This document shows, in pieces, positions 2,609 through 48,840 of a stretch of 64,000 nucleotides of DNA (its first letter is position 1; every line of letters begins with the position of its first letter). The DNA comes from Cristatella mucedo (Eukaryota; Bryozoa; Phylactolaemata; Cristatellidae). The translations under genes were made by a program, and so were the position numbers. The notes below the pieces were generated by a model. The model had not been told where the DNA came from, did not search any database, and saw only the letters and a program-made list of their open reading frames with translations. The stretch spans positions 804,501-868,500 of the forward strand of contig WPIO01000051.1 of assembly GCA_009760855.2 (NCBI GenBank), read 5' to 3'.

Positions 2609-2610
2609 GC

Positions 2611-6334: not shown

Positions 6335-6514
6335 CTATATAAACTAAAGCATCAGAACAGCAGTGAGCTTTAAATAAAACATAATTGTATTACCTGATAT
6401 AGTGAATAAATGTCTTTTCTTGTGAAGAACCCTCTGACAATGCACCTTATTAAGCGCGAATAAAACAAAGCTATTGTTATTATTATCGCTTAAATAGCAG
6501 CGAGCGACGTTAAT

Positions 6515-6591
6515 ATCATCGTAATTACGAAGGGTGGCAAGGTGCTCACACTTCATGACCGAGGTCGTTTGTTGGAATTCTACAGTGGGCG
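6515..6591 (+). repeat. tRNA-like SINE head, unit 1
   Basis: Degenerate version of the tRNA-like block in the other units (CACTTCATGACCGAGGTCGT...), here with the B box damaged to TTTGTTGGAATTC. It is recognised only through unit alignment. Confidence 0.45.
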
Positions 6592-7149
6592 AGGCTTTTT
6601 TGAAAACTCGTGTGATCATGATGGGCGTCAAGGCTCCTATGGAGCTACACACTCAAGTGTGTTGGATCAGCTAATATTTTTTTCTGAAAGCTTAAGCAAA
6701 TTGTTGCAACTTTAAGCTTTACCACATCGACGGATCATCCCGCCTGAAGACGATTGGTCAACTATGCCAATCCAGTTCTCCAAGAATATCGTCAATGGAT
6801 GTGCTCAATAGTTAAATTAGAAAGCGGTACAAAAAAGTATACTGTGAACACAATTTGTTTGAAGAGACGCCGTTCGATCTATGCATATGTTCACACAAAA
6901 CTCGACTATGGTAATGAAAATTCTCGTACAGAGATTTGCGTTTCTTCTTGCTTCCAAAACAAACATAAGAACCACTCGTAGGACGCAAGAGTAAGGCATT
7001 GTGTTTGATATCACGTCTTTAAAACGCATGACTGCTGTACGAATAACGTATGAACCGTCAGTATTGCCAATGTCATGAAATTAGCAGTTAAGGAGGGTCT
7101 TTCTTCAGTTACCCTTACTGCTACAGCTGATATTAACACGTTTGTATTA

Positions 7150-8010
7150 AGCCCTCAGAGAAATTGATCTCTTACTAGGCAATTTATTTAAACTGTAGGA
7201 AGCTGGATGAGCTGATAAGCTGTACAATGGCCAATTTTATCAAGCAAAACGTGGTTATTAGATTTACAAGCATAGTATCAAAACGTAAATGTGCTTAGTG
7301 GCAACATACACAGTGTTGGCATTCATAGGCACGAAACAAAAGGTCACAAGAACCCTTTAAATGCTGACAAAATAGTTGCTTTTTAAGTTTCTACTTGAAT
7401 TTTTATTCGGGGGTTGTCGTGACGTCAGACTAGAATGTGATCGAGCATTCGGGAGCAAACAAACTAAAGGTAGGGTCTCTATAGAAATTGCCGATATGAT
7501 CCCACCTGACGAAGACAGAATTTTAACGAAGCATGGATTAATTTAGATGTGGTAACCTCTCTAAGGAAGACAGAATTTTACAATGCTGTGGATCTTCGAG
7601 TAGGCAGACTTGGCTGTTGAGCTTATCTGGAGTCTTCACCCCTAACATTTTATACTTGTTTCTAATTGAGAATGTCACCACTCATCATTCAACCGTGCTT
7701 CCTATCCAGTTAATGTAAAGTGATTAGAAAGAGTTTGATTTCTCCGAGGACGCTAGATTAATTGTAATATTATTATTGTTTTTATCTATCTTCTAGTGCC
7801 TGAACACTGTGGAACAAGACACCAAGATTTTGCGAGACTTTAAGTTTTCTGATTTTTTAATGACACTTCGTTTGTCCGTAACTAGCGAGTTACTTGAATC
7901 ATCCTTTAATTTGAGAAGACCTGCTACCTTTAACAAGTGGATGACAGCATTGCATGCTGCAAGGAAGCGGAATAAGCTCAGAGCCTTGAGACACACCTTA
8001 CTTCAGCTGA
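7150..8010 (-). mobile_element. Old antisense LINE-A relic with nested sense 3' tail, unit 1
   Basis: Bases 7,150-7,590 and 7,840-8,010 are highly decayed antisense LINE-A (reversed tail CCCTCAGAGAAATTGATCTC, then the antisense of the RT end). A sense LINE-A 3' end (about 7,640-7,790, ending in a TTATTATTG tract) interrupts it. The same nested arrangement is at 32,210-33,100 in unit 3 but not in unit 2. Confidence 0.65.
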
Positions 8011-9518
8011 GCTCCCAGTGGATGGTGGCAGACGGGCTAATGTAGATCTCCGATGTTTTATCGGCACGTGTTTTCGTGCTTTCACTTGCTATCTCGCCGT
8101 CGATTCACATTGTACTAGTTTACTTGCACTGGTGGCATTGTTCTAATACCCATGTAATTGCCCAAAACCAAGCGTTGCAAATCATCTCGTAAAACGCATT
8201 GCTTGTGGTACCATTTACGGCACCAGGCTGCGAGATTTACACGAGCAATTTCATATCGGCATTTAGTCTTCGGTTCTACTAGAAATTAGAAAGGCACAGG
8301 GTGTGAGCATCGAGGTGGTATTATGCCAATTTTTGTAACTATTTTTAAAACATAATCGAAGATTACAAGATCCCAGTATGCCCGTGGGGTCATTCCCTAG
8401 GTGTGCACTGGCTGTGATATTGATGACTTTTGCTTTTTAAAGGGGGTCTTCCTATTTTTTTTTAATATCGAGCTAATATCAGTCGATTCCTAGATTGAGC
8501 GAGACTCTTTGCATTTCATGGTCTTTACTCTTGAATTTAAGTCTTGATTTTCGTAACTCTAGCTTTGAGTTCAGTGAAAAGTTAAAATAGTAGATTAGGT
8601 ATTACTTTCCGAAGCAGTAAAGTGGGCTAACCTTATTTCGAATGCAAAAAACAAGTAACAAAATCAAAAGGACTTTTTTTGCTTGCCGAACAAAGAATTG
8701 TTGATGCAATTGTTGGATGACATCATTATCCAAGAGAAACTTTGTGTCCTATTTTAGTCTACGATTGAGAAACATCCAGTCGTTTCATCCACTGCCAGGG
8801 CATGGAGCTCGAATGCATACTATGCACGGAGGTGGACGACAACTCAGTCGTTTCTCTTCATACGAAAATCCTGAAATGATACTTCAGCATCGACGTCTCC
8901 GTCTACCCCATGACTGCTGAGGAGCAGCATAGGCTTCCTAATGAACAATGTAGTCGCGTTTGCATATCTTACATTTGAAAAATCAAGATTTTAGCAAATT
9001 GATTGCTTGGACTTTAAGATTATCAAAAATAGAGACCTCCATCAATGGCCATCATTTTCACCGATGGAGTACTCATACACATTTAAATAAAAACAGTATC
9101 GGAATTCGAGCAATAGTGGCAATCTATGCCTTAGGAATGCTGCATGGATTTGGTACGAAGCCTTCAGTATTTCTCAGCGTCAGGTGGAGTGATTAAGCCC
9201 GGCCCACCTAGTGACTTGTTTGCTTTTTGAATACCATAAGACGCAACTATTATAAACGGAATAAATGCGACATTCCAAATTATGAAACAGCATTTACACA
9301 TCAACAGAAGAGTTCAAGTGGCTACGGCTCTGCATTCGTCGGAAAATACTGGATTTAGAGCTGCAAAAAAAGAATTCACTACGTGGGTTGTAGAAGGCCA
9401 TTACCTTAGGCACACGCTAACACCACGAAGACAGTAGCACATGTAAAGAAATGAGGGGCAGCTTGTGACTATGGTGTCACTGGTCACGGAACAATCGGTC
9501 ACAGATTTCCAAACCTGA

Positions 9519-10312
9519 ATAATAATAATAATAATAATATTGCACTTGATAAAGCGCCCTCAGAGAACTTAATCTCTTTCTAGGCGCTTTACATTTGCTG
9601 CAAAGTGATACGCAATAGAATAGTAAGTAAAATCATGCTTGAAAAACAAACACAATGAATAACATGGTTAGGGGTTACATGCACTGGGTCAGCATGCAAA
9701 TGTGGTTAGTGGTAGCATGAACAGTGTCAGCACGCATAAGCACATCGAGGACGAATCACAAGGACCCACTAAATGCTGTCCTAAATAGGAATGTTTTTAA
9801 GTTTCTTTTAAATGTGGTCAGGTCAGGGGATGTTCTGATGCAGGTCGGGAGGGAGTTCCAGGCTGTGGGAGCATACGAGCTAAATGCACGGTCTCCAAAG
9901 GATTTAAGGTTTGTACGAGGTATTTCTAGACTGTTGGATTCCGAAAAGCGAGTGGTACGATGCTTTGCCTGATGGGGTAGTATCTCTGAAAGATAGGCTG
10001 GAGCCATAGAATGAAGAGACCTAAAAGTGAGCGACAAAACCTTGAAGTCAATCCGTTGCTTGACTGGTAACCAGTGCAGGTCGGCGAGAAGTGGAGTAAT
10101 GTGGCAACTGCGACGCTCACGGCAGACAAGCCTAGCTGCAGAGTTTTGCACCAGCTGCAATCGCCTGATCGCACATGCTGGTAGGCCAGTAAGCAGTGAG
10201 TTGCAGAAGTCGAGACGAGATGTCACGAATGCATGGACCAACTTGGACGTGGTATCCTTATCTAAACAAGCCCTAATTTTAGCAATGTTATGAAGCTGAA
10301 TCAGTTGATGAA
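9519..10312 (-). mobile_element. Unit-1-specific antisense LINE-A, 5'-truncated
   Basis: Starts with an (AAT)n tract, the reversed LINE-A tail, and runs through the 3' UTR into the RT C-terminal region. The frame 9,756-10,241 reads LVCRERRSCHITPLLADLHW and ends FLFRTAFSGSL. Units 2 (near 24,350) and 3 (near 34,700) have no insertion at this place, so it arrived after the array formed. It is well preserved, which fits a young insertion. Confidence 0.85.
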
Positions 10313-10353
10313 ATGTTATGATGCAATGTTATGAAGCTGAATCAGTTGATGAA
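10282..10353 (+). repeat. 31-bp direct duplication at a LINE 5' junction
   Basis: The stretch starting GCAATGTTATGAAGCTGAAT occurs at 10,282-10,312 and again at 10,323-10,353, offset by 41 bp. It straddles the junction between the LINE-A 5' end and unit-1 DNA, so it probably arose during or after insertion. Confidence 0.75.
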
Positions 10354-11330
10354 TTTGAAGCCCCGCATGCCGTCAGTTCAAGGTTTCACGTCCTACGGGT
10401 AGCCGATCATGCTCAGACGGCCGACTAGAAGTACCTAAATCATACCTCGGTAGCTAACCCTATAATAATAGCCTTAATTGGTAGATTTCCACAGACGGCT
10501 ACTTTTACAGAATTTAGTCCTCACTGAAAACCAGCTGATAATGGAGATTGCAGGAGGCGAGAGATTAGTATAACTTTACCCATTCGCTAGTGAATAAAAC
10601 TAGACATGGAGATGCTACTCAAGCAGAGGCTATACGTTCGACTATCTGGCAAACAAGCTGCAGATTAAGGCCGATTTCTACTTGCTACGTCATGCAGATG
10701 CCTGGGCGGAAGACAAAGCTATGGGCGGTATGGATTCGGATTAACTCACCGAGTACACCATGCTTCAATTAAATCGGGTCAAACGGGTGCAAGTAGAGAA
10801 GAATGTATGCTGCTCGTGAGATGTGGACTAGCATTTACATTAATGGCCGCAGACTATAGCAATAACAAAACTATGGACGCAGAAACGCACTTTCACAGGT
10901 TAAATTTGTTTTGCAACAGCGTTTACTCCGTTTGTTAAGCTTAAGAAAACTAAAAAGAAACGACGAGGTGTCACCGAGCCGATGATTTCGGCTGGCCGTT
11001 TCACGTAAACCAGTGTCTCCACAAAGTCTTACTTCCGTTTAGAACGTGTGGCCTGAAACGGTGATCGGTGTTCCCGGTCTATTAGTTATATCGATGAGAT
11101 TCACTGACGGAATAGCATCAGTTCGTCCCTCCTACGGGAAAAAATATGTCCTCTGGTTCGACAACAGGCAGTCCACGGTTCGACCCAAATGGGACCAGGT
11201 CGTTACCTCAAGCCTCAAGAGTCGGCCTCCAAAATTGGCTAATCGGCTGAGCTGTGGCCTCAGCCAATGCTAGCCATAAAGCACACCAGAGCCACCCTCT
11301 TTGTTATCTAATAAACACAAGCATGCGTAC

Positions 11331-11400
11331 GCACAGACTCACACAGGCACACACAGGCACACACACAGGCACACACACTGGCACACACACGCACACACAC

Positions 11401-11447
<47 letters not shown>
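11331..11447 (+). repeat. (CA)n microsatellite, unit 1
   Basis: About 115 bp of CACACA with interspersed G. The orthologous tract in unit 2 (27,325-27,391) and unit 3 (36,353-36,413) is about half as long. It produces spurious His-Thr ORFs. Confidence 0.95.
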
Positions 11448-11448
<1 letters not shown>

Positions 11449-11629
11449 CTGGTAGAAGGCTAATCTCTTTTAATTGTCACAAAAAAACAGCAAAAATTCT
11501 CTAGACATGGACCGCATGAAGACCACTTTTTTTGAAGACACATTTATAGCATCCAGTAAAGTTTTTGCTTCACGCCAAGTGAAGCAATATTTCGAAGTTG
11601 AAAAGAATAGGTCGCTTTATTGAGTGGAA

Positions 11630-11732
11630 AAATATGTGTACAATTCATTTACTGGGCAGGCAGGTGAACTTTATGTCTATGCAGGCTCGTCCAGTATCCC
11701 GCAGGGTATTACCGGAAGGCCTCAATCATCGA
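11630..11732 (-). repeat. SINE 3' piece, unit 1
   Basis: Matches the minus-strand SINE at 62,540-62,690 in its tail half (ACAATTCATTTACTGGG..., GCAGGCTCGTCCAGTATCCC..., ends near CCTCAATCATCGA). Orthologous pieces are at 27,577-27,677 and 36,597-36,708, so it predates the array. Confidence 0.5.
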
Positions 11733-11735
11733 ATC

Positions 11736-12490
11736 AGTTTAGATAAGGATACCTCGTCTAAGTTTTTCGATGCATTTGAATCACACCATCTTGATTTCTG
11801 TCCGACTCTGCTCGCTGGCCTCCTGGCATCTGAAATTAGGCGATTACAGACTGTGCAAAACTCTGCAACTAGGCTTGTCTGTCGTGAGCATGGCAGTTGC
11901 CACGTCGCACCACTTCTCGCCAACCTGCAAAGGCTACTAGGTAAGTAACGGATCGGTTTCAAGGTCTTGTCGCTCACTTTTAGGTCACTTCATTCTTTGG
12001 CTCCAGCCTATCTCTCAGATCTACTCTCCCACCAGGCCAAGCATCGTACCACCTGCATTTCGGAATCCAACAGTTTACCAATACCTAGCACAAACCTCAA
12101 ATCATTCGGACAACTTGCATTTAATTCGTATGCTACCAAAGCCCGGAACTCCCCCCCCCGACTTGCGTCAGAACATCTCCTGACTTGACCACGTTTTAAA
12201 AAAAAAACTTAAAAGCACACCTATTTAGGACAGCATTTAGTAGGTCTCTGCGATTCGTCTTTCATGTGCTTATTCGTGCTGACACTGTGCAAGCTGCCAC
12301 TAACCACATTTTCATGCTGACCTTGTGCATGTCAACCCTAACCATGTTATTCCTGTTGTTTATAAAGCATAATATTACTTGCCATTCAATCGCGCTTCCC
12401 TTAACAAGAAATGTAAAGCACCTTGAAAGAGATTGAGTTCTCAGAGGACGCTTTATCAAGTGCATTATTATTATTGTTATTATTACTATT
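11736..12490 (+). mobile_element. LINE-A 3' fragment shared by units 1 and 3
   Basis: Sense LINE-A starting in the RT end (LDKDTSSKFFDAFESHHLDF) and ending in a TTATTATTA tract. It lies between CATCGA and GCAGTCCCCTAGACC. Unit 3 has the same insertion at the same place (36,714-37,462). Unit 2 reads straight across (27,670-27,690). Three frames are used, so the coding part is dead. Confidence 0.8.
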
Positions 12491-12931
12491 GCAGTCCCCT
12501 AGACCTCGGTCATCAAGGTGCCCAAGTAACCTTTTGGGTCAACTTAGGGATGCAGAATATTCAGTCTAAAAAGGTATTCAGACGATTGAAACGATAACAT
12601 TGAAATGATGATAAGACCATTAGGCCGTGTATTAGAATTGAGTTAATTCACCAACCATAAACTATCTCGGCTTTGCCACAGCATGAAACCTCGCTGACAG
12701 CTGACGACTGAAATAGGCTCCAGCTGATAATGTCAACTGAGTAAAAGCCAGCATTAATGCAAATTCTGAGGGACTCAAGTTAGGTTTCTGTCACATGTGT
12801 GCCTCAACGAGAATGACTGAATCTTACTTTGACCGCGATCGCTCATGTTTAGTCATTCATTTTTTTGACTTTTTTAGGCTTGGCGATTCTCTTGGCTCAA
12901 CCGTCGCAAAACGAAAACGAAACTCTTTGGC

Positions 12932-13057
12932 ATGGCTGCAAGTTACCAAAGCCCAAATCACGCCGCAGATGAGCAGGACGAAGCTGTAAGTCAATACTTT
13001 CGTTTTCAGGCTACTGATCACAATGTACAAGTAAACGTAGGCAGTTTGACGACTTAA
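12932..13057 (+). pseudogene. MAAPYLS-type unit ORF, truncated copy in unit 1
   Basis: Counterpart of the ORFs at 28,122-28,313 and 37,907-38,116. It begins MAASYQSPNHAADEQDEAV and stops after about 41 codons because GACGACTGA reads GACGACTTAA. No family is recognised. Confidence 0.4.
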
Positions 13058-13269
13058 TACCACGAGGGCGTCCGGAAAAGTATGCTGGAAGACGGGCATT
13101 TACCCAGAAGCTAAGCTCTGTGACAGCGTCAGAGTGGTAACTGAAAATTCTAGATGACTCTGTAGAGCTATACAGCTGTAGCTGTGTGCTGCTAAGTGAG
13201 CTTCGTGGATCTACGCAGCACGATTACTACAGCATGCTTACAGGAAACCATCACATTCCTGAGAGAGGC

Positions 13270-13604
13270 TTTAAATCATGCTGAACCCCATGATTCATTT
13301 TACAGTTCCTATGTTTGCGCAAAGCCCTAAAGCTCACATCCAACGTGCAACCTCAACGAGGAGCTGACCCGTGCTATTCGTTCTTTGTGTATTTATGCAT
13401 GCTTACAGTGTGCATGTGGCCACTAACCATATTTGCATTCTCAACGCATGCATGTCACCTCTAACCGTGTTAAGCTAGGTTACTCTCAAGCATGCTACTT
13501 CAATGCATTTTATCATGCTTCTTTTGCAGCACATGTAAAGGGACTAGAAAAGAATTGAGTTCTGAAAGGGCAAAATACAATTCGTATTATTATTATTATT
13601 ATTA
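13270..13604 (+). mobile_element. Oldest shared LINE-A 3' end, unit 1
   Basis: LINE-A 3' UTR and tail ending in (ATT)n. The same fragment is at 28,470-28,777 and 38,290-38,614, so the insertion predates all three units. Confidence 0.75.
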
Positions 13605-13889
13605 AATGCTGGTGCAAGTGCTCGTGCTCACTGCTCAGCCTTCACCCGAATTTAAGAAAAGCACAAAAATCTTCCAACAGCTGCTGTAAATGCCTGTACA
13701 CTACAAGGCTTTCCTTTGTAGCCAAGGCACCTGCAAGAGTCCGACTTCGGACAGCTCGAAGACACAGCTGTCACTTAAATTATGCAGGCATAGGAGCTAG
13801 TCTGCAGTTTGTAGAGAGCAGCGTTCCTCATTAGCCTGGCTTACTGCATCCTTGACCTAACTAGAGCTTGCAGCATATTCTGAAAAATG

Positions 13890-14620
13890 CCATTTCAATT
13901 TAGCCTCATATACTACCGTGTTACTGGTTTGCTCACCAAATATTTGCTGCAAATGTGCTGTGGCGATTGTCACCTTAGAAAGCTACACTTTAGCGGCCAC
14001 TTTTGAAGGGTGATCTGCCTTTCCATTTCTAAATAGGCTGTACGAATCAGCAGTCTCGATTCCCCATAGCTAACAGCGGTGTCCTGAGTTTACGCGTGAG
14101 TTTCGCACTTTTCCTCATGAGCATTCTTATGAAAATGACCTCCAGTAGTCCGCCTAGGCACTTTTGTACCCCAATCCACTTGCCAGTTTCAAATCAAGTG
14201 GCGAGACGCTACGATTTAGATTCTACTTAGTAGACTTTGTTGCTTTGTGTTCTTCCTCAAATTCAGACACTTGTGCATGTAAGTTTTCATGCAAATGGCC
14301 TGAGAGAGCATGGTCCGGCCCATTGGAATCACGATACACATGCTAATATAAAAAGAAGCCGTAACACACTTTGAGTTTTTGCCACAGACAAAACTGTGTC
14401 GGCCATTTACCGAAAAAAAACATCTTCACACTGCCAGGTCGCATTTTTATGCAAATTACATTCAACATGATGGCCCAGCCGGTGGGCCAGCACGTTAGTG
14501 GCTTAGAGACACTCCTGACCTGCGGCAAGGACTGAAGGCATATCCAGATATACTGTATAAGAGCCGCCACAGCGCCTGCAGCTTCTTCCTTCTAACTTAC
14601 ACGATTAACCTTACGTGCCT
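13890..14620 (+). repeat. 160-175-bp monomer block, unit 1
   Basis: A motif of the type ATGnAAATGrCCTCnAG recurs at about 13,950, 14,130, 14,288 and 14,449, giving steps near 160-180 bp, with CACTTTTG and CATG-TTCT words at matching places. Equivalent blocks: 29,290-29,960, 39,110-39,800 and 46,700-47,340. Confidence 0.6.
14449..14535 (+). pseudogene. MQITFN-type unit ORF, broken copy in unit 1
   Basis: Begins MQITFNMMAQPVGQHVSGLE and stops after 28 codons. A one-base difference from the unit-2 copy shifts the frame after the shared CAGCACGTT segment. An ATATAAAAA box lies about 110 bp upstream. Confidence 0.4.
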
Positions 14621-16015
14621 CAACCCACATACTTATTTATTCGGTCTCACCATTTTGCAAAAGGCTAACTTAGTGAGCTTAATACTTATTTTCGAATAAG
14701 TGAAGTGGTCAGCCGATGCGGTGTCGCACGCCAGGGTTATGTGGCTGCTACAATCCTAATTCAATTCTTCCTCAATCAAGGGCTCACGATCTTTGAACAC
14801 CGGACTGTTTACAAATAAAGTGGTACCTTGGCTCACGAGTTTAATTTGTTGGGCGACGAGGTCTAACTCAATTTACTTGTAAGTCAAATTAGTGTTCACA
14901 TTTAAATGAAATCAAAGCCACTATTATGCTCCACACCACCAAAAACTATCGCGATTTTGTGTCACCTGTTTTAAATTAAAAGATCTACTTACATGCAACG
15001 GACATTGTTGTAAAGCAATTCAAGAGAACGTACCCGCAGTAATCGGGTTTTATGATTTCTTTAGTACGACGTGGAGATTAGGTGACCAGTAGATGTAGAT
15101 GAAACCCTATGACAAATTTGTCGGCGACGTGGAACGCTCGTTTATTGGCTGGGCATTTACGTGGACGTACCGATTGTTATCAGTTATGCGAAGAATTCTT
15201 ACACGAAGGTAGTGCCTAAGTAAAGTAGGGTACGTAATTAGCTGTACCTGCTGACTAGTCACATTTAAATTTTGAGTCTGGCGATCTTGTGCAACCATTA
15301 ACCAGGATGTATCTCTTGAGTCTATATAGGTGCGAACCTCGTTGCCTGAGCTTGACTCACGTTCGGGTCGTCAAGTAGCTTCTTGCAGCTCAACGTCTTT
15401 CGCTGCCCCACCCTGAATGGACCAATTAAATGCAAGCAGTCTTCCCTCGACCCTCCTGCTTGCATCGCTGACACACGCAGTCGCACACTTATACATGAAA
15501 GAAATTGCCGTTGCAACCGCTTCCTGTGAACGAGTGTGGCACGGGATGCTTGGGTGGACTTTGCAGGATTCACTGTGAAGTTCACTGTGTCAACCCACTG
15601 TGGGGTATTTTTACCGGATGGCAACTCAAACATTAGCTCCAAAATCTAACAAAGAGTCGGCCTAGAGACACTTCGTATATCTGAAAACTCGCAGGTTCGC
15701 ACACTCCAAAGTCAACGTACCACTGTGCACGCCTACATGTGCCCAGAGACAAGAATATTCTGTTGCGTGCTGAGTTTTCGGAAGGTTTCTGACTCGATCG
15801 CTGGACCTGACGTTCAGTGAGAACAATGTGCAGTGATAAGATGCATCAAAATCCTCTAACTGCCTGCCGCTAGCAAGCAAAAACCATTGCCACTAATTGT
15901 TGTTATTCGCCCTTTTAAAAGATGCTACTGTGAGTGGTGCCACTCTAAAGTGCTCATCAGCTTAACTACCAAAAGAAACAAATATGAATAAAATCTATTA
16001 AAATCCTCGTCTAAA

Positions 16016-16674: not shown

Positions 16675-16777
16675 AAAACAGCTTGCGATGAAGCCGCTGA
16701 AAATGCAGCTTATTAAGAACAAATCAAGCAGAGCTGTTGTTAATATTATTGCTTAAATGGCAGCGAGCTACGTTAAT

Positions 16778-16854
16778 GTCATTGTACAAGCTAAGGGTGG
16801 TAATGTGCTCACAATTCACGACCGAAGTCACTGGTTTGAATTCTACAGTGGGCG
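16778..16854 (+). repeat. tRNA-like SINE head, unit 2
   Basis: CAAGCTAAGGGTGGTAATGT followed by CACGACCGAAGTCACTGG and TTTGAATTC. It keeps the A-box-like and damaged B-box-like words seen in unit 3. Confidence 0.45.
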
Positions 16855-17399
16855 AGGCTTCGTTGGAAAATGCAAGCGATCGTGATAGCCATTTAGGGTC
16901 CTATGGCGCAATGCACAATTGCCTCTTAGATGAGCTAATATGTTTCCTAAAAGCTTAAGCAAATTGTTGAAACATTGAGCCGTACCAAATCAACGAATTG
17001 TCCTGCCTGGTGACCATCGGTCAACTATACCTATCCAGTTCTCAAAGAACATCGTGCAAGAATGTGCTCAATAGTTAAATTTGAAAGCGGCACAAAAAGG
17101 TTTACGTGAAGACACTTTGCTTAGAGACATGCCGTTTGATCCACACGTATGCTCACTCAAAACTCAACTATGACAACGGAAATTCCCTTACAGAGATTTA
17201 TGTCATCGTACTTCGAAAACAAACATATGAAACAATCGTGAGATGACACACAAATGCATAATGTTTAATATCACGCCATAAAAGCGCATGACTACAATAC
17301 GAATAACATACGAACCATAAATATTGCCACTGTCATTAAATTAGCACTTAAAGAGGGTCTTTCTTTAGTTACCCTAACAGCAGGAGCAGATAATAATAC

Positions 17400-36413: not shown

Positions 36414-36596
36414 CTCTGGTAAAAGAATAATCTCTTTTAATAATCAGAAAAATAACAGCAAACATTCTATAGCCATGGACCAAAGGAAGACCACTTTTTT
36501 CGCCGCCACATTTATGGCTTAAAACTACAGTTTGTGCTTCACTCTAAGTGATTCAATATTTTAAAGTTGATAACAATAGGTCGCTTTGTTGAGCGG

Positions 36597-36708: not shown

Positions 36709-36713
36709 GGCTT

Positions 36714-37462: not shown

Positions 37463-37906
37463 GCAGTCCCCTAGACCTCGGTCCTCAAAGGTGACCCAGT
37501 TAACTTTTGGGAAAAACTAGGGATGCAGATTATGCAGCCTAAAAAAGAATTCAGACGATTGAAACAGTTACATTGAAATGATAAAAAGATAATTGGGCAG
37601 TCTATTAGAATTTAGGTAATTCACCAACCATAAACCATCTCGGCTTTGCCGGAGCATCAAACCTCGGTGACAGCTGTCAGCTGAAATAGGCGCCAGCTGA
37701 TAATGTCATTTGAGTAAAAGCCAGTATTAATGCAAGTTCTGAGGGACTCAAGTTAGGTTTCTGTCATACGTGTCCCTCAACGACAACTGCTGAAGCTTAC
37801 TTTGATCGCGATCACTCACGTTCAGTCATTCAGACTTTTTCGACTTTTTAAGGCTTGGCGATTCACTTGGCTCAACCCATGCTAAAGGAAAACGAAACTC
37901 ATTGCT

Positions 37907-38116
37907 ATGGCTGCACCTTATCTGAGCAAAAATGACGCCGCAGATGAGCAGGACGAAGCTGTAAGGCAAGACTTTCATTTTCAGGCTACAGATCACGTTC
38001 TACAAGTAAACGTAGGCATTCTGACGACTGAATACCACGAGGGCGTCCGAAAAAAGTATGCTGGAAGACGGGCATTTACCCAGAAGCAGAGCTCTGTGAC
38101 AGCGTCCCAGTGGTAA
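37907..38116 (+). CDS. Short unit ORF, MAAPYLS type, unit 3
   Basis: Sixty-nine codons from ATG to TAA: MAAPYLSKNDAADEQDEAVR, then VLQVNVGILTTEYHEGVRKK and a basic C-terminus. It differs from the unit-2 ORF at its C-terminus because unit 3 has one extra A in the AAAAAG run, which changes the frame after VRK. Function unknown. Confidence 0.3.
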   Translation: MAAPYLSKNDAADEQDEAVRQDFHFQATDHVLQVNVGILTTEYHEGVRKKYAGRRAFTQKQSSVTASQW

Positions 38117-38158
38117 CTGCAAATGCTAGATGACTCGGTAGAGCTATATAGCTGTAGC

Positions 38159-38200
38159 TGTATATATGTATATATGTATATATGTATATATGTGTGTATG
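38159..38200 (+). repeat. TATATATG microsatellite, unit 3 only
   Basis: About five TATATATG-type steps inserted where units 1 and 2 read AGCTGTAGCTGTGTGCTGCT. Confidence 0.9.
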
Positions 38201-38289
38201 CTGCTATGTGAGCTTCGTGGATCTACGGAGAATGATTACTACAACATGCTTACAGGAAACTATCACATTCCCGAGAGAGGCTGCAAATC

Positions 38290-38614
38290 ATGCTGGTGCC
38301 CATGATTCATTTTACAGTGCCTACGTTTGTGCAAAGCCCTAAAGCTCACATTCAACGTGTAACCTCAACGAGGGGCGGATCCGTGCTATTTCTTCTTTGT
38401 GTGTTTTTACGTGCCTACAGTGTGCATGCTTTCACTAAACACATTTGCATTCTCACCGTATGCATGTCACCTTTCACCGTATTAAGTTAGTTAACTATCA
38501 AGCAAGCTATTGCAATGCATTTGATCATGCTTCTTTTGCAGGATATGTAAGGGACTAGAAAAAATTGACTTCTTGAAGGGCACAATAAACAACAAATTAC
38601 TATTACTATTAAAA
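38290..38614 (+). mobile_element. Oldest shared LINE-A 3' end, unit 3
   Basis: Ortholog of 13,270-13,604 and 28,470-28,777. It ends near CAACAAATTACTATTACTATT. Confidence 0.7.
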
Positions 38615-39109
38615 GCTGGTGCAAGTGCTCGTGCTCACTGGTCAGCCTTCACCCGAATCCAATAAATGCAGAAACATCGTCCAACAGCAACTGTAAATGC
38701 CTGTACACTGCGAGGCTTTCCTTTGTAACCGAGGCACCTCCAAGAGTCCGACTTCGAACAGCTCGAAGATACAGCTGCCACTTAAATTATGCAGGCATCA
38801 GGCTAGTCTGCAGTATGTGGAGAGCGGCGTTCTTCATTATCCTGACTTACAGCATACTTGGCCCTGTGGCACTATGGTCGTAAGACTGGTTTCTACCGTT
38901 AGCCAGTATTACTGTAACAGAAAGAGCATGGTTAAGCACGACTTACTGGTTGACTGTTGCATTAAGAAGCCGGACTTCAATGTTAAAGGACCCATAGCTT
39001 GGTTTGGATTTGAGGCCAGCAGCTGTATTTCCTATATCCGACTAATAGCTTCGATCCACTGTTATCGTAACGAAAAGACTATCGGACGAATGCGATTTCA
39101 ATTTAGCCT

Positions 39110-39800
39110 CATACACTACCGTGTTACATGTTTAGTCACCAAATATTTGCTGCAAATGTGCTGTGGCGATTGGATCCTTAGACTAGGCGGCCACTTTTGA
39201 AAGGTGATCTACCTTTCCATTTCTAAACAGGCTGTACGAATAAGCAGTCTCGATTCCCCATAGCTAATTACGGTGTCCTGAGTTTAGACGCGAGTTTCGC
39301 AATTTTCCTCGTGAGCATTCTTATTAAAATGACCTCCAGTAGTCCGCCTACGCACTTTTGAACTGCAATCCACTTGCCAGTTCCGAATCAAGTGGTGAGA
39401 TGCTACGACTCAATTCTACACAGTAGATTTTGTTGCTTCGTGTTCGTATACAAATGTCAGGCACTTGTGCATTGAAGTTCTCACGCAAATGGCCTCAGAT
39501 AGCATATTCCAGCCTTCTGGAATCGCGATACACATGCTAATATAAAAAGAAGCCGTAAAACCCTTCGAGTACTTGCAATAGAAAAAAATTGTGTCGGCTG
39601 TGTTCCGAAAAAAACATCTTCACAGTGTCAGTTTACATTTTTATGCAACTTATATTCAACACGATGGCCCAGCCAGTGGCCCACCACGTTCGCGGCTTAG
39701 GGCCACTCGTGTTCCTGCGACAAGGACTGCAAGCATATCCCGATATACTGTATAAGAGCGTATACTGTATAAGCCTGCAGCTTTTTCCTGCCATCTTACA
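39110..39800 (+). repeat. 160-175-bp monomer block, unit 3
   Basis: Motif positions near 39,148, 39,322, 39,480 and 39,643 give steps of 174, 158 and 163 bp. Confidence 0.55.
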
Positions 39801-39807
39801 CGATTAA
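39643..39807 (+). pseudogene. MQITFN-type unit ORF, shortened copy in unit 3
   Basis: Starts MQLIFNTMAQPVAHHVRGLG and keeps LQAYPDILYK. A duplicated GAGCGTATACTGTATAAG-like word then replaces the SYSFFLP segment, and the frame stops after 54 codons. Confidence 0.35.
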
Positions 39808-41289
39808 CCTTACGTGCGTCAACCCACGTACATAATTATTGGCTCAGACCATTTTGCAAAAGGCTAACTTAGTGAGCTTAATCCTTATTTTTGAATGAGA
39901 GAAGTGGTCAACCGAAGCGGTGTCGCACACTAGGGATCTGTGGCTGCTACAATCGTAATACACGTCTTCTTGAATCAAGGGCTCACAATCTTTTCACACC
40001 GGAATGTTTACAAATAAAGTGGTACCTTTGCTCACAAATTTAATTAGTTCCGCGAAGGAGGTCATAACTCAATGTACTCGTATGTCAAATTTGTGTTCCA
40101 CATTTAAATGAAATCAAATGCCACTATTTTGCTGCTGACCAGCAAAAAATAACGCAATTTTTTCAAGTGTTTTAAATTAAAAGAACTACTTACATGCAAC
40201 GGACATTGTTGTAAAGCAATTCAAGAGAACCTACCCGCAATTATTGGGTTTTAATGTTTTTAATGTTCAACGTGGAGATCAGGCGACTAGTAGATGTGTA
40301 CGATACTGTATGATAAATATGTAGGCGACGTGGAAAGCGCATCTATGGGCAGGGCTTTTATGTGGAAGCGCCGATTGTCATCAGTTATGCGAAGAATTTT
40401 TACACGAAGGTGGTACCTAAGTAAAGAACGGTAGGTACTTAGCTGTTCCTGCTGTAGTCAGATTTAAAACTGGACTCTGGCGATCTTTTGCAACCAAGAA
40501 CCAGGAGGTATCTCTTGAGTCTATATAGGCGCAAACCTCGTGGCCTGAGCTTGACGTCACATTCGGGTCGTCAAGTAGCTTCTTGCAGCTCAACGTCTTT
40601 CCCTGCCCTACCCATAATGACCCAATTAAAGGACAGCAATCCCTCCCTCCACCCTCTTGCTTGCGTCGCTGACACACGCACTCGCGCTTGTATAAATGAA
40701 AGAAATTCCGTTGCAACCGCTTGAGGTGAACGCGTGTGGCATGGGATTCTGGGTGGACGTTGCAGGGTTCACTGTGAAGTTCACTGTGGCAACTCTCGGT
40801 GGGATATTTTTACCGTATAGTAACCCAAACTTTAGCTCCCAACTCGAACGAAAAATTGGCCAGGAGACACTTCGTATATCTGAAAACTTGCAGGTTCACA
40901 CACTCCTTAGTCAACGTACTACTGTGCATGCCCACACGAGATCGGAGACAAGCAATTTCCGCTGCCTGCTGAGTTTTTGCCAGGTTTCTGACTGGATCGC
41001 TGGACCTGACGTTCAGTGAGAACAACGTGCAGTGATAAGATGCATCAAAATCCCTATACTGCCTGCCACAAGCAAGCAAAAAATTTTTGCCACTAATCGC
41101 TGTTATTCGCGCTTTAAAAAGATGCTACTGTGAGTGGTGCCACTCCAAAGTGCTCATCCGCTTAAATAACCATAAAAACAATTATGAATAACACCTATTA
41201 AAATCCTCTTGACTAATCACTAAGACTCGAGCAAGTCGAAGATCTACCCACGGACATGCCACACATGATTTTTTGTTGATTCATAATGA

Positions 41290-41480
41290 TCTTTATGATG
41301 ATATAGCCGATCGCTTCTCTCTATTTTTTGTCCAGAAGATAGACAAGATCAAGGAGTCCATCCCTGCGATGACAACATCTCCCCTATAATGCTGTTCCCC
41401 GATTCCTGGCTGCTCCTCATTGTGTCCATTTAAGCAGGTTCCTAGTGATCTCGTCCTGAAGTTCATATCCCAATCAAAGA
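41290..41480 (+). mobile_element. LINE-A scrap at the end of unit 3
   Basis: Matches 21,096-21,270 (CGATCGCTTCTCTC, AGAAGATAGACAAGATCAAG, ATCCCTGCGATGACAACATC), the linker between endonuclease and RT. It splits a block that is continuous in unit 4 near 48,350-48,410. Confidence 0.75.
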
Positions 41481-41536
41481 AGACAACGAGTGGAATGGCT
41501 CATCCTGCAATGACGGTAGCAGTTTTGTAATTTGAT

Positions 41537-41767
41537 TTACGCTCTATCAGTGTTATTGCTCGTCCCAAAGTCAGGGATGTAATTCAATCGGCAGGCTGGC
41601 TCAATTCTACCAAATCTGAGCTGTATTATTTCAAGAAATAGCAAGCATTGTATCTCAAAAAATAATTTCTTCACCCTCTGTTTACTCTTGAGATCGCTTT
41701 GAGCCTTTAGCAGGCTCAAACTTTCGAATACAGTGTCCAGAACTACCTGCCTTTGGTGTGCTGGCAT
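41537..41767 (-). pseudogene. Unidentified minus-strand relic in the unit end block
   Basis: A 76-codon frame with SLLKAQSDLKSKQR and FGRIEPACRLNYIPDFG. The homologous unit-4 frame (48,344-48,547) reads IGMIELACRLTYILKFGARN and then NQVAELLPPLQ. Neither copy is intact and no family is recognised. It may be a decayed exon of a gene captured in the unit. Confidence 0.25.
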
Positions 41768-42460
41768 CCTTAATTTAACGGCTATATATCTGTGAATGTA
41801 ATTCTTGAGGTGTAGTACACGTAACGTACAGCATAAGTGAATGGCAGTGTGGACGCATTGCTCCGTAGAAGGATACCTAGTCTGTGCATCGCCTTAGTCA
41901 ATAACTAAGTCAGTTTGGTCGCAGTTAATAATAAAAAATAATGCACTTGATAAAGCTCCCTTGGAAAGCTCAATCTCTTTCTTGGCGCTTTACATTTGCC
42001 GCAAAGTGAAATGAGATTTAATGGTGAGTAATATCATGCTTGATAAACAACATGGATGACATGGTTAGGGGTGACATGCACAGGGTCAGCATTCACATGC
42101 GGTTAGTGGCAGCATGCACAGTGTCAGCACGCATAAGCACTTGAAGGACGAATCTCAGAGACTCACTAAATGCTGTCCTAAATGGGTGTGTTTTTAAGCT
42201 TTTTAAACGTGGTCAAGTCAGGGGACGTTCTGACGCAAGAAGGGAGAGAGTTCCAGGCTTTGGGAGCATACAAACTAAATGCACGGTCTCTAAAGGATTC
42301 GAGGTTTGTGCGAGGTATTGGTAAACTGTTGGATTCCGAAAAGCGGGTGGCACGATGCTTAGCCTGGTGGGGAGAAGATCTGAGAGACAGGCAGGAGCCA
42401 AAAATGAAGTGACCAAAAAGTGAGCGAGAAAACCTTAAATTCAATCCGTTGCTTGACTGG

Positions 42461-42524: not shown

Positions 42525-42744
42525 CTGCGACGCCCACGTCAGCCAAGCCTAGCTGGGGAGTTGTGCACCAGATGTAATCGCCTGATTGCACATGCTGGTA
42601 GGCCAGCTCGTAGTGAGTTAAATAAGTCAATAGGATGTTGACAACACATGGACCAATTTAGATGTGGTATCCCTGTCTTAAGTCTTTTGTTTCAAGGAAG
42701 AAAAGATTCTACCGATGCTGGGGGCTGCAAGTAGGCAAACTTGA

Positions 42745-42915
42745 CTGTGGAGTTTATCTGGAGTCTTCACCCCTAAGCATGTTATGTTTGTTGCTTATCG
42801 AAATGCTGCCACTCACTATGTGACCGTGCTTCCTGTCCAGAGAATGTAAAGTTCTTAGAAGGAGATATAGTTCTCTGAGGGCGCTATATCAAATGTATTA
42901 TTATTATTATTATTA
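42745..42915 (+). mobile_element. Sense LINE-A 3' tail nested in the antisense copy
   Basis: Same 3' end type as 7,640-7,790 and 32,690-32,850 (GGAGTCTTCACCCCTAAGCA, then GAGGGCGCTATATCAAATG and a TTATTATTATTATTATTATT tract). Confidence 0.75.
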
Positions 42916-43209
42916 TGGTTATCTGATCGTCACTTTGGAATAGGACTCTTTGATTGTGTGCAGTTGTAATAGGAAATTTATTGGCACAGCCTATTTTGAG
43001 AGTTAAGTTTTCCAATTTTTGAGTCACACTTGGTTTTTTCGTTGCTAATAAATTAGTTGTATCGTCATTTTTTTTAGAAGACCTGCCGAGTCAATGACAG
43101 CAATTCATGCAGCAAGTAAGTAGAAATAGTTCTCTGTGCTGGAGGCCTGGAATGGATCAAATCAAAGGCACAACTAAGTGTCGCCAGTATGAAAGTGAAA
43201 GCCTAGATT

Positions 43210-44193
43210 GTGCTGAAACGTCGTCCCACGGCCGATACCAAGGTCCAATTCAAATTCGAAGAGCCAGCGTCCGCCAGGCCGGACGTAATCGGTAGAGAAC
43301 ACGAGCCACTTCATCGCCGTCGCCCAGTTGATGGACAGCCTCTTAAATTCCGCCTACTAAATGTCCGCTCGCTAAAAACCAAGGGGTTACTTATCCGCGA
43401 TCAGGTGGTCCAGGAGAAGCTAGATGCATTTCTGCTTACCGAAACCTGGATGACGCCTTGTTCCAGTAGCTGTATTTCCGAGACCACCCCACCCGGGTTC
43501 TCATTCTATCAGTCCATTCGTTCTGACAAGGTTGTTGGCGGGGTTACAATTGTTGTTCGCGAATCGTTTGGCTATAAAATGTGCAGTTTCTCGCATGGGT
43601 CATCGTTTGAATAAGTTGCTATCAGGTCTTCATCAAAGACAATGCCTCTCACCGGTGTGATATACCGGCCTCCTTCTGGCTGTCTAAACTTGTTTATAGA
43701 GGAGTTTTCAGAGTTCCTCGCGAAAATATTTGTGTGTGACAGGCCGCTACTGATTGTAGGAGACTTCAATATTCACGTTGACAACCCTAGCAACAGCCAG
43801 ATCTGCTCATTTCTTGACTGTCTGGAGAATTCTGGTTTGGCCCAACACGTTAATCATAGCACCCACGTCGGTGGCCCCATTCTAGATCTCGTGATCACTA
43901 AGGATGTCCTCCCCACTGACTTTGTGGTGTACCCACTGACCCTCTCAGATCATTGTTCGGTCTCGTTTACTGTTCCTACTCCCTCATACGTTCAGGGCAA
44001 TGTCGAATTTGCCAAACGACGTAACTTACAAAGCATTGACATGGACAAATTTTTGATATCTGTTTGTGATGCAGGCCTTCTTGATCTGCATTCAGACTCG
44101 ACCGGCAGCCTCTATACCCTCACTGATGCGATGAACATGACACTCAGAAGTGCTCTTGACAAGCATGCTCCCGTTCGCTCTATCCGTGTTTAA
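43210..44193 (+). pseudogene. LINE-B APE-type endonuclease region, stop-interrupted
   Basis: One frame with an in-frame TAA at 43,612 and another at 44,191. Motifs in order: LLNVRSLKTKG, FLLTETWMTP (catalytic Glu kept), GGVTIVVRES, GVIYRPPSG, IVGDFNIHVDN, SDHCSVSFTV. All core catalytic motifs are present, unlike B1. The TAA at 44,191 stands where B1 has CAA (RVQSHQD), so a single C-to-T change explains it. The first residues (43,210 onward) have no good start codon, so the true N-terminus may be truncated. Confidence 0.85.
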
Positions 44194-45041
44194 AGTCATC
44201 GAGATTGCTTTAAATTTACAAAAAAACTCCTTAAGATGCGCCGTGTTGAGCGCAGGCTGGAACGTTGGTTCAAGAAATCGGGGTCAGAGGCAGACCTAGT
44301 CAATTTTAAAGACTTCCTTCGAGTTTACACCCGAAAGCTTAAAAAAAAGCCAGGGCTTCTTTTTTCATTAGAAGACTGAATTTCTGCCAGTCGGACACTA
44401 AACAGATTTATAAGACAGTAAACCATTTACTGGCCAATGCTGTCAGGTCTGACTTCCCAGATATTAAGGGCTCAGCCGAAAAGTTTTCAGCCTTCTTTAC
44501 TGAAAAAATTGTGCACATTCGTGCCTCCATTAAGCCCCCTCCGACCAAAGCAATCGCCGTTCCTCAACCTGTGACCTTTCTTAAAAGGTTCTCTGATGTT
44601 TCTGCCTGTGGTGTGGCTGCCTTAATAAGGTCTAGCAAAAAGAGCTCGTCTCCTGAAGACCCTATACCTTCATCTCTGTGGTCTTCACTAACAGACCAAC
44701 TTAGCCCTGCCATAACCAAGATTTTTAATGCTTCTTTGGGAAAAGGGGTCGTCCTCAAGTCCTTCAAATCGGCAATCGTTAGACCTATTCTTAAAAAGCC
44801 TGGATTGGGCACAGAGGTCCTAGCAAACTATCGTCCAGTTTCCCTTCTTCCGTTCTTATCAAAGATTCTTGAAAAAATTGTCGCTAAGCAGCTAGTTGAA
44901 CGTATTGAAAACAATGGAATGTCAGAAACATTTCAGTCAGGGTTCAAGAGGCAGCACTCTACTGAAACTGCTCTCCTACGTGTTAACAATGACATTCTAC
45001 GTGGCAACGACGACGGAATGTCACTGCCTAAGCTCTGCTAG
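44194..45041 (+). pseudogene. LINE-B linker and RT fingers, frameshifted
   Basis: After the stop at 44,191 the frame continues (FKFTKKLLKMRRV) until an AAAAAAAA run near 44,343, where B1 reads LKQTRASFF. That run shifts the frame. From 44,511 a clean frame runs with PEDPIPSSLWSSLTDQLSPA, ANYRPVSLLPFLSKILEKIV and QSGFKRQHSTETALLRVNN, ending MSLPKLC at 45,041, exactly as in B1. Confidence 0.8.
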
Positions 45042-46300
45042 ATCTGTCTGCTGCCTTCGACACCATTGATCACGAAGTTCTGCTTGAACGATTGAGAACA
45101 ACGATCGGTCTGGCAGACGAAGCACTGGCGTGGTTTAAATCCTACTTGTCCGATCGTGTTCAATCCGTGTCGTGTGGGGGTCAGGTCTCAGACATAAGAA
45201 GGGTCACCTGTGGAGTCCCTCAAGGGTCTGTACTTGGTCCCTTGCTGTTCTCTATTTATACACAACCTCTGGGAAAAGTGATTAAGGCCCATGGATTAGG
45301 ATATCACTTCTATGCTGACGATACTCAGTTGTATTTGTCATTTAAACCGTCGGAATCTGCAGCAGCAACTGAAAAACTGAATGCTTGCCTTGCCGATATT
45401 CGATCCTGGATGTCGGAAAACATCCTGAAATTAAATGACGATAAAACCGAACTTCTTCTCATAGGACACCCTAAGCGTGTAGCTGGATTAAAAGGCTTTG
45501 CTATTCCAATAGGTGATGCTATTGTGCGACCTTCAACAAGTGCTCGTAATCTAGGTGTCGTGTTCGACAGCTGCCTCAATTTCAAAAGCTTCATTCAGAA
45601 GACTGCCTCTACAGCTAGCCATCACATCCGATCCCTATCCAAGGTTAGAAGCTGTCTCCCACAGTGGCTTGTAAAAAATTTAACTAGCTCTTTAGTTCTG
45701 TCTCGGCTTGATTATTGTAATTCCCTTTTGGCTGGGCTACCAAAGAAAGCTATTATGCCACTACAGAGGACTATGAATATGGCTGCAAGGCTGGTCTTCA
45801 AGTCCCAGTGGTTTGAACACGTGTCACCTTTGCTGGAAGAGCTAGGATGGTTGCCGGTTGAGCAAAGGATACAGAGCAAAGTTCTTACGCTGACCCACAA
45901 GGCCCGCCACGGCTTGGCTCCTTCATACCTAGCTGAACTGCTGCATCAGTTTAAGCCTGTTCGCGCCCTCAGGTCATGTGTGGACAATAAATTAGCTGTC
46001 CCATTCCTCCGCTTAAAGACAGTTGGCGACAGAAGCTTTAGCTCTGCAGGTCCCAGACTGTGGAACTCGCTTCCACAATTCTTACGCAACGACATCTACT
46101 CTCCAACTGCCGACTATGGCACATCTTTTTCAGCGGTCCTGAACTGCTACTTTTATGCTACTCACTACCTCAACTGCTCTCCTAACTCTGCTGTGCTTCC
46201 CACTTTCTCTTTGTTGCGTGAGACGAAGTCTGTTGGCTACCGAATGCGTACCGAAAGCCGCTTAGGCTGTGAGTGGGCTATACAAAACTCTCCTGCGTAA
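45042..46300 (+). pseudogene. LINE-B RT palm/thumb and C-terminal domain
   Basis: Coding resumes in a new frame about 25 bases before the MSLPKLC stop ([17 protein letters not shown]), then [39 protein letters not shown] (YADD intact), [32 protein letters not shown] and [20 protein letters not shown]. The C-terminal block is the one shared by L2/CR1 proteins. About 400 codons are uninterrupted to 46,300, the longest coding stretch in the window. Confidence 0.9.
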
Positions 46301-46699
46301 CACCCACATGGTCTTTATGACTTTGTGGAGTTACTGACGGAGATGCATTACATTACATTACATTACATTAGTCTGCAGCATGTGGAGGGAGGCGTTCCTT
46401 ATTAGCCTGGCTTGCAGCATATTGGCCCTGTAGCGCCGTTGTCCCATTGCTGGCATCTGGCGTAAGCGAGCACTGCTGCAACAGAAACAGATTTGTTAAA
46501 TACTACTTACTGGGTTGATTTTTGCATGAAGATGCAGGACTCGTAATGCTATAGAACCCATAGCTTGGTTTGGATTTGAAGCCACCAGATGTAGTTCATG
46601 GATCTCCCCGATAGCTATGATCCACTGTGATCTTAATGAGAAGATGATCGGACAAATGCGATTTTAATTCAGCCTCGTACACTACCCGGTTACAGGTTT

Positions 46700-47340
46700 T
46701 CTCACCAAACATTTTATACAAATGGCCTCTAGCTATCCTGGCCATCAACTGGACCGGTACTTTTGAACGGTGATCTAGCTACCATTTCCAAACTAGCTGT
46801 GCGAATCTGGAGGCTTCATTCCTCATTATAGATAACGGTGTCCCGAGTTTAAGCGCGAAATTCGTGCTATTTTTCATGCACGTTCTCATGAATATGGCCT
46901 TCAGTAGTCCACCACGGCAGTATCCCGGCACTTTTGAACTGCATTCCACTTGTGTGTTCCACATAAAGCAGCACGGGTCTGCAATTTTAATTCCACTCTA
47001 TATCCGACGTTTCTTTCATTCCTTTCACAAAATTCAAGCATTCGTGCTTTCGAATCGCCATGCAAATGGCCTTCAGATAGCATGGTCCGACCTTTTAGAA
47101 TTGCGATATGTATGCTAATAAGAAAGAAACTTGTAAACGCGTTTAATTTAAGTCCAAGCCACATAATAAATTGCATTGGCTTTGTGGAAAAAATTATCTT
47201 CAAGACACTGCACGTGTGCTATGTTATGCAAATTAAATTGAACGTAGTGGCCCAGCACTTTCGAGGCTTAGCTCAACTCACTGACACGTGTCAAGGACTG
47301 CAAGCATATCTGGATATATTGTATAAGCGCAGCCACAGTG
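46700..47340 (+). repeat. 160-175-bp monomer block, unit 4
   Basis: The motif falls near 46,717, 46,890, 47,064 and 47,226, steps of 173, 174 and 162 bp. Words at matching positions include CTGTGCGAATCTGG, CGGCACTTTTGAACTGCATT and ATAGCATGGTCCGACC. Confidence 0.6.
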
Positions 47341-47420
47341 CCTGCAGCTTCTTCCTGCCAAATTCAAAGCCATTAAGCTTGCGTGCATTAACACACATAG
47401 TTAAGTATTGGCTAACATAG
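47226..47420 (+). CDS. Short unit ORF, MQITFN type, unit 4
   Basis: Sixty-four codons: MQIKLNVVAQHFRGLAQLTD, then LQAYLDILYK, ACSFFLPNSK, LSLRALTHIV. It is a few codons shorter than the unit-2 ORF (29,813-30,040) through an in-frame deletion near VAQPVAQ. The upstream TATA-like word is degraded (CTAATAAGAAAG). Family unknown. Confidence 0.3.
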   Translation: MQIKLNVVAQHFRGLAQLTDTCQGLQAYLDILYKRSHSACSFFLPNSKPLSLRALTHIVKYWLT

Positions 47421-48343
47421 CTACACGAATATTTGACTCGGTGAGCTGAAACCTAATTTTTAACGGAGAGCAGTCATCAACCGAAGCGGTGACGCACGCT
47501 AGGGATCCGCAGCCGTGAAAGCGCATTTATTGGCTGGGGTTTTACGTGGACGCGCCAATTGTTATCAGATATGGAAGGAATTCTCGCAGGAAGGTACTGC
47601 CTAAGTAAAGTACAGTGTAAACGTAGCTGTTCCTGTCGTAGTCAGACTCAAAACCGGAGTTTGGCAATCTTGGGCAACAAAGAAAGCACCATAAGGTCTC
47701 TCTCGGGTCTGACTGGGCGCCAACCACACGGCCTTCGCTTCACGTCATACCCGGGCGTCGGGTAGCGTCTTGCAGCAAAATATCTTTCGCTGCCATACCC
47801 TTAGTGGCACCTAGTAAATGCAAGCAGTACCTCCCTCCTCCGTCTTGCTTGCTTCGCTGACACATCCATTCGCACTCGTATATATGCAAAGAATTCTGCT
47901 GCAACCACATAAAGTGAACGAGTAGGGCACGAGATTATCGCAGGACGCTGCAGCGTTCACTGCGACTCGCTGCGACAACTAGCGGTGAGGTGTCTGAAGC
48001 TATTTCGTAACAAAAATTGTATCTCTCAACTAAAAGCAAAGAATCGGCCGAGAGACAGCTCGTGTCTAAGAAAACTCATAGGTTCGCACGTTTTAAAGTC
48101 AACGTGCCACTGTGCATGCACACTTGTGCTAAGAGATAAAGATTTTCCGCCGCCCGCTTCGTTTTCGGCAGGTTTCATACTGGTGTTCAGGATCAGACGT
48201 GCAGTGAGAGGACGCCTCAAAATCCGTATACTGCCTGCCGCGAGCGAGCAGAAACCATTGCCACTAATTGCTGCGATTCGCCATCTAAAAATGTTACTAC
48301 CATGTGTGATGTCGTGCAGAAATGCTCAAGTCCTTTCAACTTA

Positions 48344-48547
48344 TCACTGAAACTCGAACAAGTCGAAGAACTTCCCAAGAATACGCCACCCAAGAATCTC
48401 TGGTAATTCGTGGAATGGCTCACCTTGTAATGGCGGCAGCAGTTCCGCAACTTGATTTAAGCTCTCAGAGTTATTTCGCGCCCCAAACTTAAGGATGTAA
48501 GTCAATCGGCAGGCTAGCTCAATCATACCAATGCTGAGATTTGGCAT
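48344..48547 (-). pseudogene. Unidentified minus-strand relic, unit 4
   Basis: Sixty-seven codons, IGMIELACRLTYILKFGARN, NQVAELLPPLQGEPFHELPE, ending DLFEFQ. It is homologous to 41,537-41,767. An AAG/GTGAGC donor-like word interrupts it after LLPPLQ. Not identified. Confidence 0.25.
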
Positions 48548-48840
48548 TTCAGGAAGTAATAAGCATTTAATCTCGTCAATTTATTTATTCTTCGTCTTTT
48601 CAAATTCAACGTTGTTGGAGCCTTAAGCAGGCTCATTTTTTCAAACATTTGATCTAGAACTACTTACCTTTGCTTTGGTGGCATTCTCACTTCATCGGCT
48701 AAATATGTACGGATGTGATTATTGAGGTGTAGTAAACGTAACGTACAGCTTACGTGACTGGCGGCGTGGCAGGTTTGCACTCGAGAAAAATACGCCTGTG
48801 CTGCGCCGAAGCTAATAACTAAAATAACCGTTTCCTAGTT

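Follow-up and report, generated by a model that had tools for sequence, protein, structure and literature searches.

An old array of ~10-kb units in the bryozoan Cristatella mucedo, very probably a decayed local segmental duplication

Introduction

The described systems closest to the locus reported here, an array of ~10-kb units in the bryozoan Cristatella mucedo, are segmental duplications, macrosatellites and tandem immune-gene arrays. Segmental duplications (low-copy repeats) resemble it in their multi-kilobase local blocks, their occurrence in both orientations, their mosaic units and the position of some breakpoints near interspersed repeats. Macrosatellites such as D4Z4, RS447, DXZ4, SST1 and TAF11-Like are, in the available part of the source, similar in having several-kilobase head-to-tail units at one or two places, and human monomers are ~99% alike or more within an array and 97-98% alike between two arrays (PMC3018141). 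The sea urchin Sp185/333 arrays, as presented in the accessible portions of two reports, provide a further parallel, being clustered segmental duplications in an animal genome (PMC5103432, PMC3091723). A literature search returned nothing that we recognised as describing the present array.

The stretch of DNA analysed, hereafter the window, comprises 64,000 bases of contig WPIO01000051.1 (C464; window = C464:804501-868500) in an assembly of 572,011,866 bases and 688 contigs. A first-pass annotation had described a head-to-tail array of three collinear ~10-kb copies and a partial fourth at 6335..48840, and had proposed either a satellite-like or segmental duplication or the remains of a giant mobile element. 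Our results indicate that the array is very probably an old and decayed segmental duplication, both tandem and inverted and specific to this locus, of DNA that is intergenic and apparently noncoding.

Organization and extent of the array

Self-BLAST was run on the window and on 228.5 kb of surroundings, with unit C (10,534 bases; Table 1) as the reference for all unit coordinates. Within the window, copies A, B, C and D form long collinear matches in one orientation, head to tail, and shuffling the window five times under a first-order Markov model left no self-match at E 1e-10. The long interspersed elements (LINEs) of the region are presumably CR1-like, Pfam yielding only endonuclease and reverse transcriptase domains, and these only in the longer ones. 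Outside the intervals occupied by CR1-like, short interspersed element (SINE)-like and terminal inverted repeat (TIR) elements, A and C align over 6,069 columns at 86.6% identity, B and C over 6,559 columns at 79.8%, and D and C over 1,820 columns at 75.3%. The backbone thus aligns beyond the recognised repeats, and sharing of LINE and SINE parts alone fails as an explanation. The self dot-plot suggested in the first-pass annotation, carried out as self-BLAST, therefore bears out the head-to-tail array that it described and, if anything, had understated.

Of the extent first proposed, the right end near 48.8 kb stands, whereas the start at 6335 does not: the left limit lies ~41 kb further left, at about window -35.2 kb (C464:769.3 kb), with four additional copies, U1 to U4, upstream of A. 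To the right of ~48.8 kb, as far as window 124 kb, matches to unit C are all short and of the dispersed-repeat kind. A second cluster, an inverted partial duplicate at C464:587-639 kb, carries V1, V2 (itself duplicated as V2b) and V3, all on the opposite strand. Pieces of the flank to the right of the array (window 68-100 kb) also recur inverted at C464:609.9-623.5 kb, ~250-290 kb upstream, at ~79-90% identity. Within the second cluster, C464:587179-603789 and 627052-643573 form a 16.6-kb pair, 39.8 kb apart and 99.1-99.2% identical; either the duplication is recent or a haplotig was left unpurged (two haplotypes joined in the assembly). Copies, order, orientation and place can all be read directly from these alignments.

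Genomic distribution of the unit

Seven probes covering 6,970 of the unit's 10,534 bases were searched against the species' own genome; all candidates were scored for probes 34150-35488, 37466-38150, 33960-34160 and 35500-36330, and 40 of 1,840, 393 and 740 candidates were scored for probes 38200-38860, 38861-41208 and 31375-32290, respectively. Probe 34150-35488 matched only at C464:589-840 kb (12/12), probes 37466-38150 and 33960-34160 only on C464 (9/9 each), and the first two together gave 21 matches, all within C464:589-843 kb; the matches of all three span C464:589-844 kb. For probe 35500-36330, eight of 17 matches lie on C464 and the remaining nine cover at most 168 query bases each. 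The other three probes behave similarly among the best candidates scored: nine of 40 matches of 38200-38860 fall in the two clusters, the other 31 being limited to query 178-422; nine of 52 matches of 38861-41208 fall in the clusters, the other 43 being limited to query 1151-2074 (window 40011-40934); and four of 42 matches of 31375-32290 are long, 37 being limited to query 4-104 and 216-382 and one being a weak match at C464:746 kb (query 655-873). Across the seven probes, long backbone matches are confined, among the candidates scored, to C464:589-853 kb. Since the off-array matches are restricted to short query stretches, the probed backbone is local, and its dispersed parts represent old repeats enclosed within the unit. 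The array presents collinear, adjacent copies of non-high-copy DNA at one place, which is what characterizes a local tandem segmental duplication.

Copy ends, subtypes and exchange

The copies end at different positions in the unit. In C coordinates, U1 ends at 38906 and 33489, U2 and U3 share a left end at 33458, the right ends of U2 and U4 lie at 38645 and 32552, D extends from 32594 to 41908, V1 and V3 end at 33966, and V2 ends at 38469. At least seven of these nine positions are clearly separate, and there is no constant pair of ends. Moreover, the U3/U4 junction (-10990 to -7011) aligns through the B/C junction (27864-31804) at 83.6% over 4,001 columns, implying that a tandem junction itself was duplicated. 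Differing ends and local-only long backbone matches both support the segmental duplication option raised in the first-pass annotation.

Pairwise identities and trees were computed by block, with copies retained where they covered at least 55% of the block. Three subtypes emerge: a (A, C and V1/V3), b (B) and u (U1, U2 and the left part of U3). The trees set u apart and group A, C, V1 and V3, with D on a long branch. Support for this group in block b6 is 99/98, with the positions of B and V2 poorly resolved; blocks b4 and b5 place V2 nearest B, which b6 does not. Identity by block is 84-87% for A-C, 71-84% for B-C and 71-74% for D-C, with A, B and C overall ~70-87% alike. U1 and U3 are mosaic: left of ~38.45 kb they are u-like, with 67-80% identity to B, and right of it they are b-like, mostly at 85-91% (single U3 windows further right reach only 78, 81, 83 and 84%). 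The switch of both copies at the same position points to a common old exchange point. Both the mosaics and the empty site of the CR1-like insertion held by A and C (Table 1) are direct observations.

The mosaics and junctions lead us to infer that the copies arose by homologous exchange, unequal or ectopic, and not by replication-based copying. A ~9.8-kb intergenic piece, already holding CR1-like, SINE-like and TIR-element remnants, would have been copied in tandem; unequal exchange among the copies would then have generated subtypes, mosaic units and short tracts spread between copies, with ancestral CR1-like pieces possibly serving as homology for some exchanges. Of 11 breakpoints, five fall within 40 bp of such pieces in C (840 bp in total). 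The array and part of its right flank would also have been copied in inverted orientation ~200 kb upstream, and the copies would subsequently have diverged without detectable selection and gained further LINE insertions.

Several points weigh against local segmental duplication of noncoding DNA, or against parts of this scenario. About 3.6 kb of the 10.5-kb unit lies outside the genome-wide probes, and weak dispersed copies may escape a search that scores best candidates only. The close end pairs 33458/33489 and 32552/32594 may each represent one event. The count of breakpoints near ancestral CR1-like pieces is post hoc and includes one breakpoint placed by hand, and there may be technical reasons for alignments to end at repeats. 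Block b8 (40333-40394), in the TIR element, slightly exceeds its permutation limit of conservation (0.856 vs 0.849), and the units may harbor a lineage-specific RNA or short-peptide gene.

Alternative explanations

A tandem family of a lineage-specific gene, one per unit and with many copies dead, specifying a short secreted peptide or a long noncoding RNA, fares best among the rivals, although it is improbable. It draws on two locally alike blocks. The most conserved, at 33975-34141, contains a minus-strand stretch of 24 codons between splice-like AG and GTRAG that is open in seven of eight copies (the near-identical V1 and V3 both counted; A has a deletion), and it includes the stretch 34059-34123 at which b3, with b8 one of two among seven blocks to do so, exceeds the 95% permutation limit (0.927 vs 0.853) in conservation profiles computed without the near duplicates U2, V3 and V2b. 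Beyond the 24 codons, however, the frame remains open to a stop in C alone, and the changes within them, counted by hand from the alignment, are mostly nonsynonymous. The second, milder block (38770-38870) offers a plus-strand ATG at 38814 followed by a hydrophobic stretch. Of eight copies, U3 and A have lost the ATG and the other six (U1, B, C, D, V1 and V3) retain it. The frame passes through GP(V/L)A in five of eight; its length up to the stop is 17 residues in D and 22 in each of C, V1 and V3.

The first block was judged chiefly by its divergence patterns. Across 33985-34141, u-to-a/b divergence (0.110) is below that within a/b (0.146; ratio 0.75, bootstrap 0.63-0.92). The flank shows the reverse relation (0.313 against 0.199; ratio 1.57, 1.25-2.11 in block-size samples). 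Divergence between U1 and U2 is 8.0% inside the block and 5.8% in the flank. Given this pattern, gene conversion between u-type and a/b-type units is the best reading of the block, and such an exchange tract accounts for it better than selection does. Divergences are low throughout the core at 34042-34130 (0.03-0.14), where some constraint may act. Together with the mostly nonsynonymous changes, the exchange-like pattern speaks against an exon at this position.

Coding scans likewise gave no significant codon-level constraint common to the units in any of three approaches. The smallest p value in 546 pairwise coding tests, 2.6e-4, would fail correction, and the low values fell mostly in LINE frames; median omega in aligned windows was 1.04 (V3 and V2b omitted); and the best score of a codon-substitution scan comparing U1, U3, A, B, D, V1, V2 and U4 with C, with the young CR1-like interval masked, was 113, inside the range of maxima from 20 local shuffles (98-191). 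A listing of short windows (V3 and V2b again omitted) contained some of low omega, but it had no null and is given no weight as evidence. RNA folding of copy C showed nothing unusual (z 1.55 and -1.05). Pfam was applied to ten open reading frames of the window and to unit C in six frames, and the latter yielded no Pfam family at E 0.1, including no transposase, integrase, recombinase or polymerase core, although short decayed pieces can be missed, as was the CR1-like remnant at 36713-37462. The earlier statement that no gene is recognised thus holds for unit C under a six-frame Pfam search, but part of the unit that it called unidentified consists of old repeats (CR1-like pieces and the dispersed ~155-bp and ~915-bp elements). 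These negative tests suggest that the array DNA is without function. It is accordingly hard to credit that the units are the graveyard of an orphan gene family, mostly dead, whose very short exons (33975-34141 or 38814) served a small secreted peptide or a spliced noncoding RNA.

A macrosatellite, namely a location-specific tandem repeat of variable number with multi-kilobase units, would agree with the head-to-tail organization at a single locus, and yet is very improbable: the window holds four units or part-units, A, B and C show the low identities given above, and inverted and truncated copies are present, features that set the array apart from macrosatellites as characterized in the available part of PMC3018141. 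A giant mobile element that had hopped locally, leaving the remains of repeated insertions in one neighbourhood, would fit copies in both orientations within ~265 kb, but this option is rejected as scarcely credible, given that among the candidates scored for the seven probes there were no dispersed copies with constant ends and long backbone matches occurred at C464 alone, that copies end at different unit positions, that units abut head to tail with one junction recurring as another, and that unit C encodes no recognisable Pfam family.

Repeats, neighbouring genes and feature coordinates

CR1-like DNA accounts for 11,081 of 42,507 bases in 6316-48822. The LINE interrupting D has a second copy at window -491 to 1716, ~94% alike and on the opposite strand, and the pair is apparently younger than the array. 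An imperfect 15-bp TIR of the ~915-bp element (AGTGGTACCTTGGCT / AGTGGTACGTTGACT) was found in copy A, and the same setting found none in C or B. In the ~155-bp SINE-like element, a tRNA-like B box (GGTTCGAATTC) was spotted by eye; ARAGORN reported no tRNA genes, Rfam gave no matches in the whole window at gathering scores, and Tandem Repeats Finder (TRF) detected short arrays only. Separately, a GSSRRAHRAGLIAP-like minisatellite at window 117.3-119.0 kb makes long open frames in several frames.

To the right of the array, Pfam identified an exon of Mpp10 (ribosome biogenesis) at 57650-58315 (E 8.7e-29). Two further matches fell short of their curated cut-offs: a weak one to an Mpp10 exon at window 72672-73193 (E 0.00082) and, near window 102 kb, a partial one to WD40 of the Cdc20/Fizzy type (E 4.8e-27).

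Table 1. Units of the array and associated features (window coordinates unless marked otherwise)
Feature	Position	Strand	Remarks
U1	-35.2 to -31.1 kb	-
U2	-23.6 to -19.9 kb
U3	-13.1 to -7.67 kb
U4	-7.63 to -6.3 kb
Array-derived fragments between upstream copies and A	1717-4994	+	Self-BLAST, window and surroundings
Fragments	1717-2609 and 3850-4673		Resemble the u-type sequence of -18.9 to -17.2 kb; CR1-like in part
Fragments	4678-4861 and 4865-4994		Resemble C 31037-31220 and 35383-35512
Copy A (subtype a)	6316-16008	+	Essentially complete; ~83-87% to C in collinear matches
CR1-like insertions in A	9518-10300 and 11737-12485
Copy B (subtype b)	16682-31177	+	Complete
CR1-like and other DNA inserted in B	18540-23034		~4.5-kb stretch
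Copy C (subtype a)	31375-41908	+	Reference unit
SINE-like element, dispersed, ~155 bp	31592-31750		Most off-array matches of probe 31375-32290 in query 216-382
Ancestral CR1-like pieces	32309-32555, 32698-33068		D left end and U4 right end inside or within 39 bp
Locally alike block, most conserved, 165 bp	33975-34141		Matched at C464 only (9/9)
CR1-like insertion	C 36713-37462 = A 11737-12485		Empty site in B (27675/27679) and V1 (C464:596125/596127)
Ancestral CR1-like piece	38390-38611		Mosaic switch of U1/U3 and ends of V2 and U2 inside or within 34 bp
Old dispersed ~915-bp element	40011-40925		Right half of unit; copies 68-77% alike genome-wide
Copy D	42647-48822	+	Partial, most divergent; 70.6-73.3% to C; right end of array
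LINE interrupting D	~43.6-46.3 kb		Exo_endo_phos_2 and RVT_1 Pfam matches in insert

Comparison with known systems

The locus provides a worked case of a noncoding multi-copy array in which an empty site, subtype mosaics and an exchange tract together order the duplications. It also illustrates that local likeness between duplicates can mimic an exon while being better explained as an exchange tract.

Catalogues of segmental duplications usually apply an identity threshold of 90%. The array is older than such entries, its different subtypes being ~64-89% alike, and that value is reached only in comparisons among U1, U2 and U3 (89-98%) and within the pairs V1/V3 and V2/V2b (at least 99%); by this yardstick it is an old duplication with younger parts. 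Set beside macrosatellites, A, B, C and D have the unit size and same-orientation adjacency, but not the near-identical monomers, reported in the accessible part of the source (PMC3018141). The Sp185/333 units carry genes, as far as the available text of both reports goes, whereas none were found in the units here (PMC5103432, PMC3091723). Taken together, these comparisons place the array within a known kind, an ordinary local duplication that has since decayed, rather than a new kind of element.

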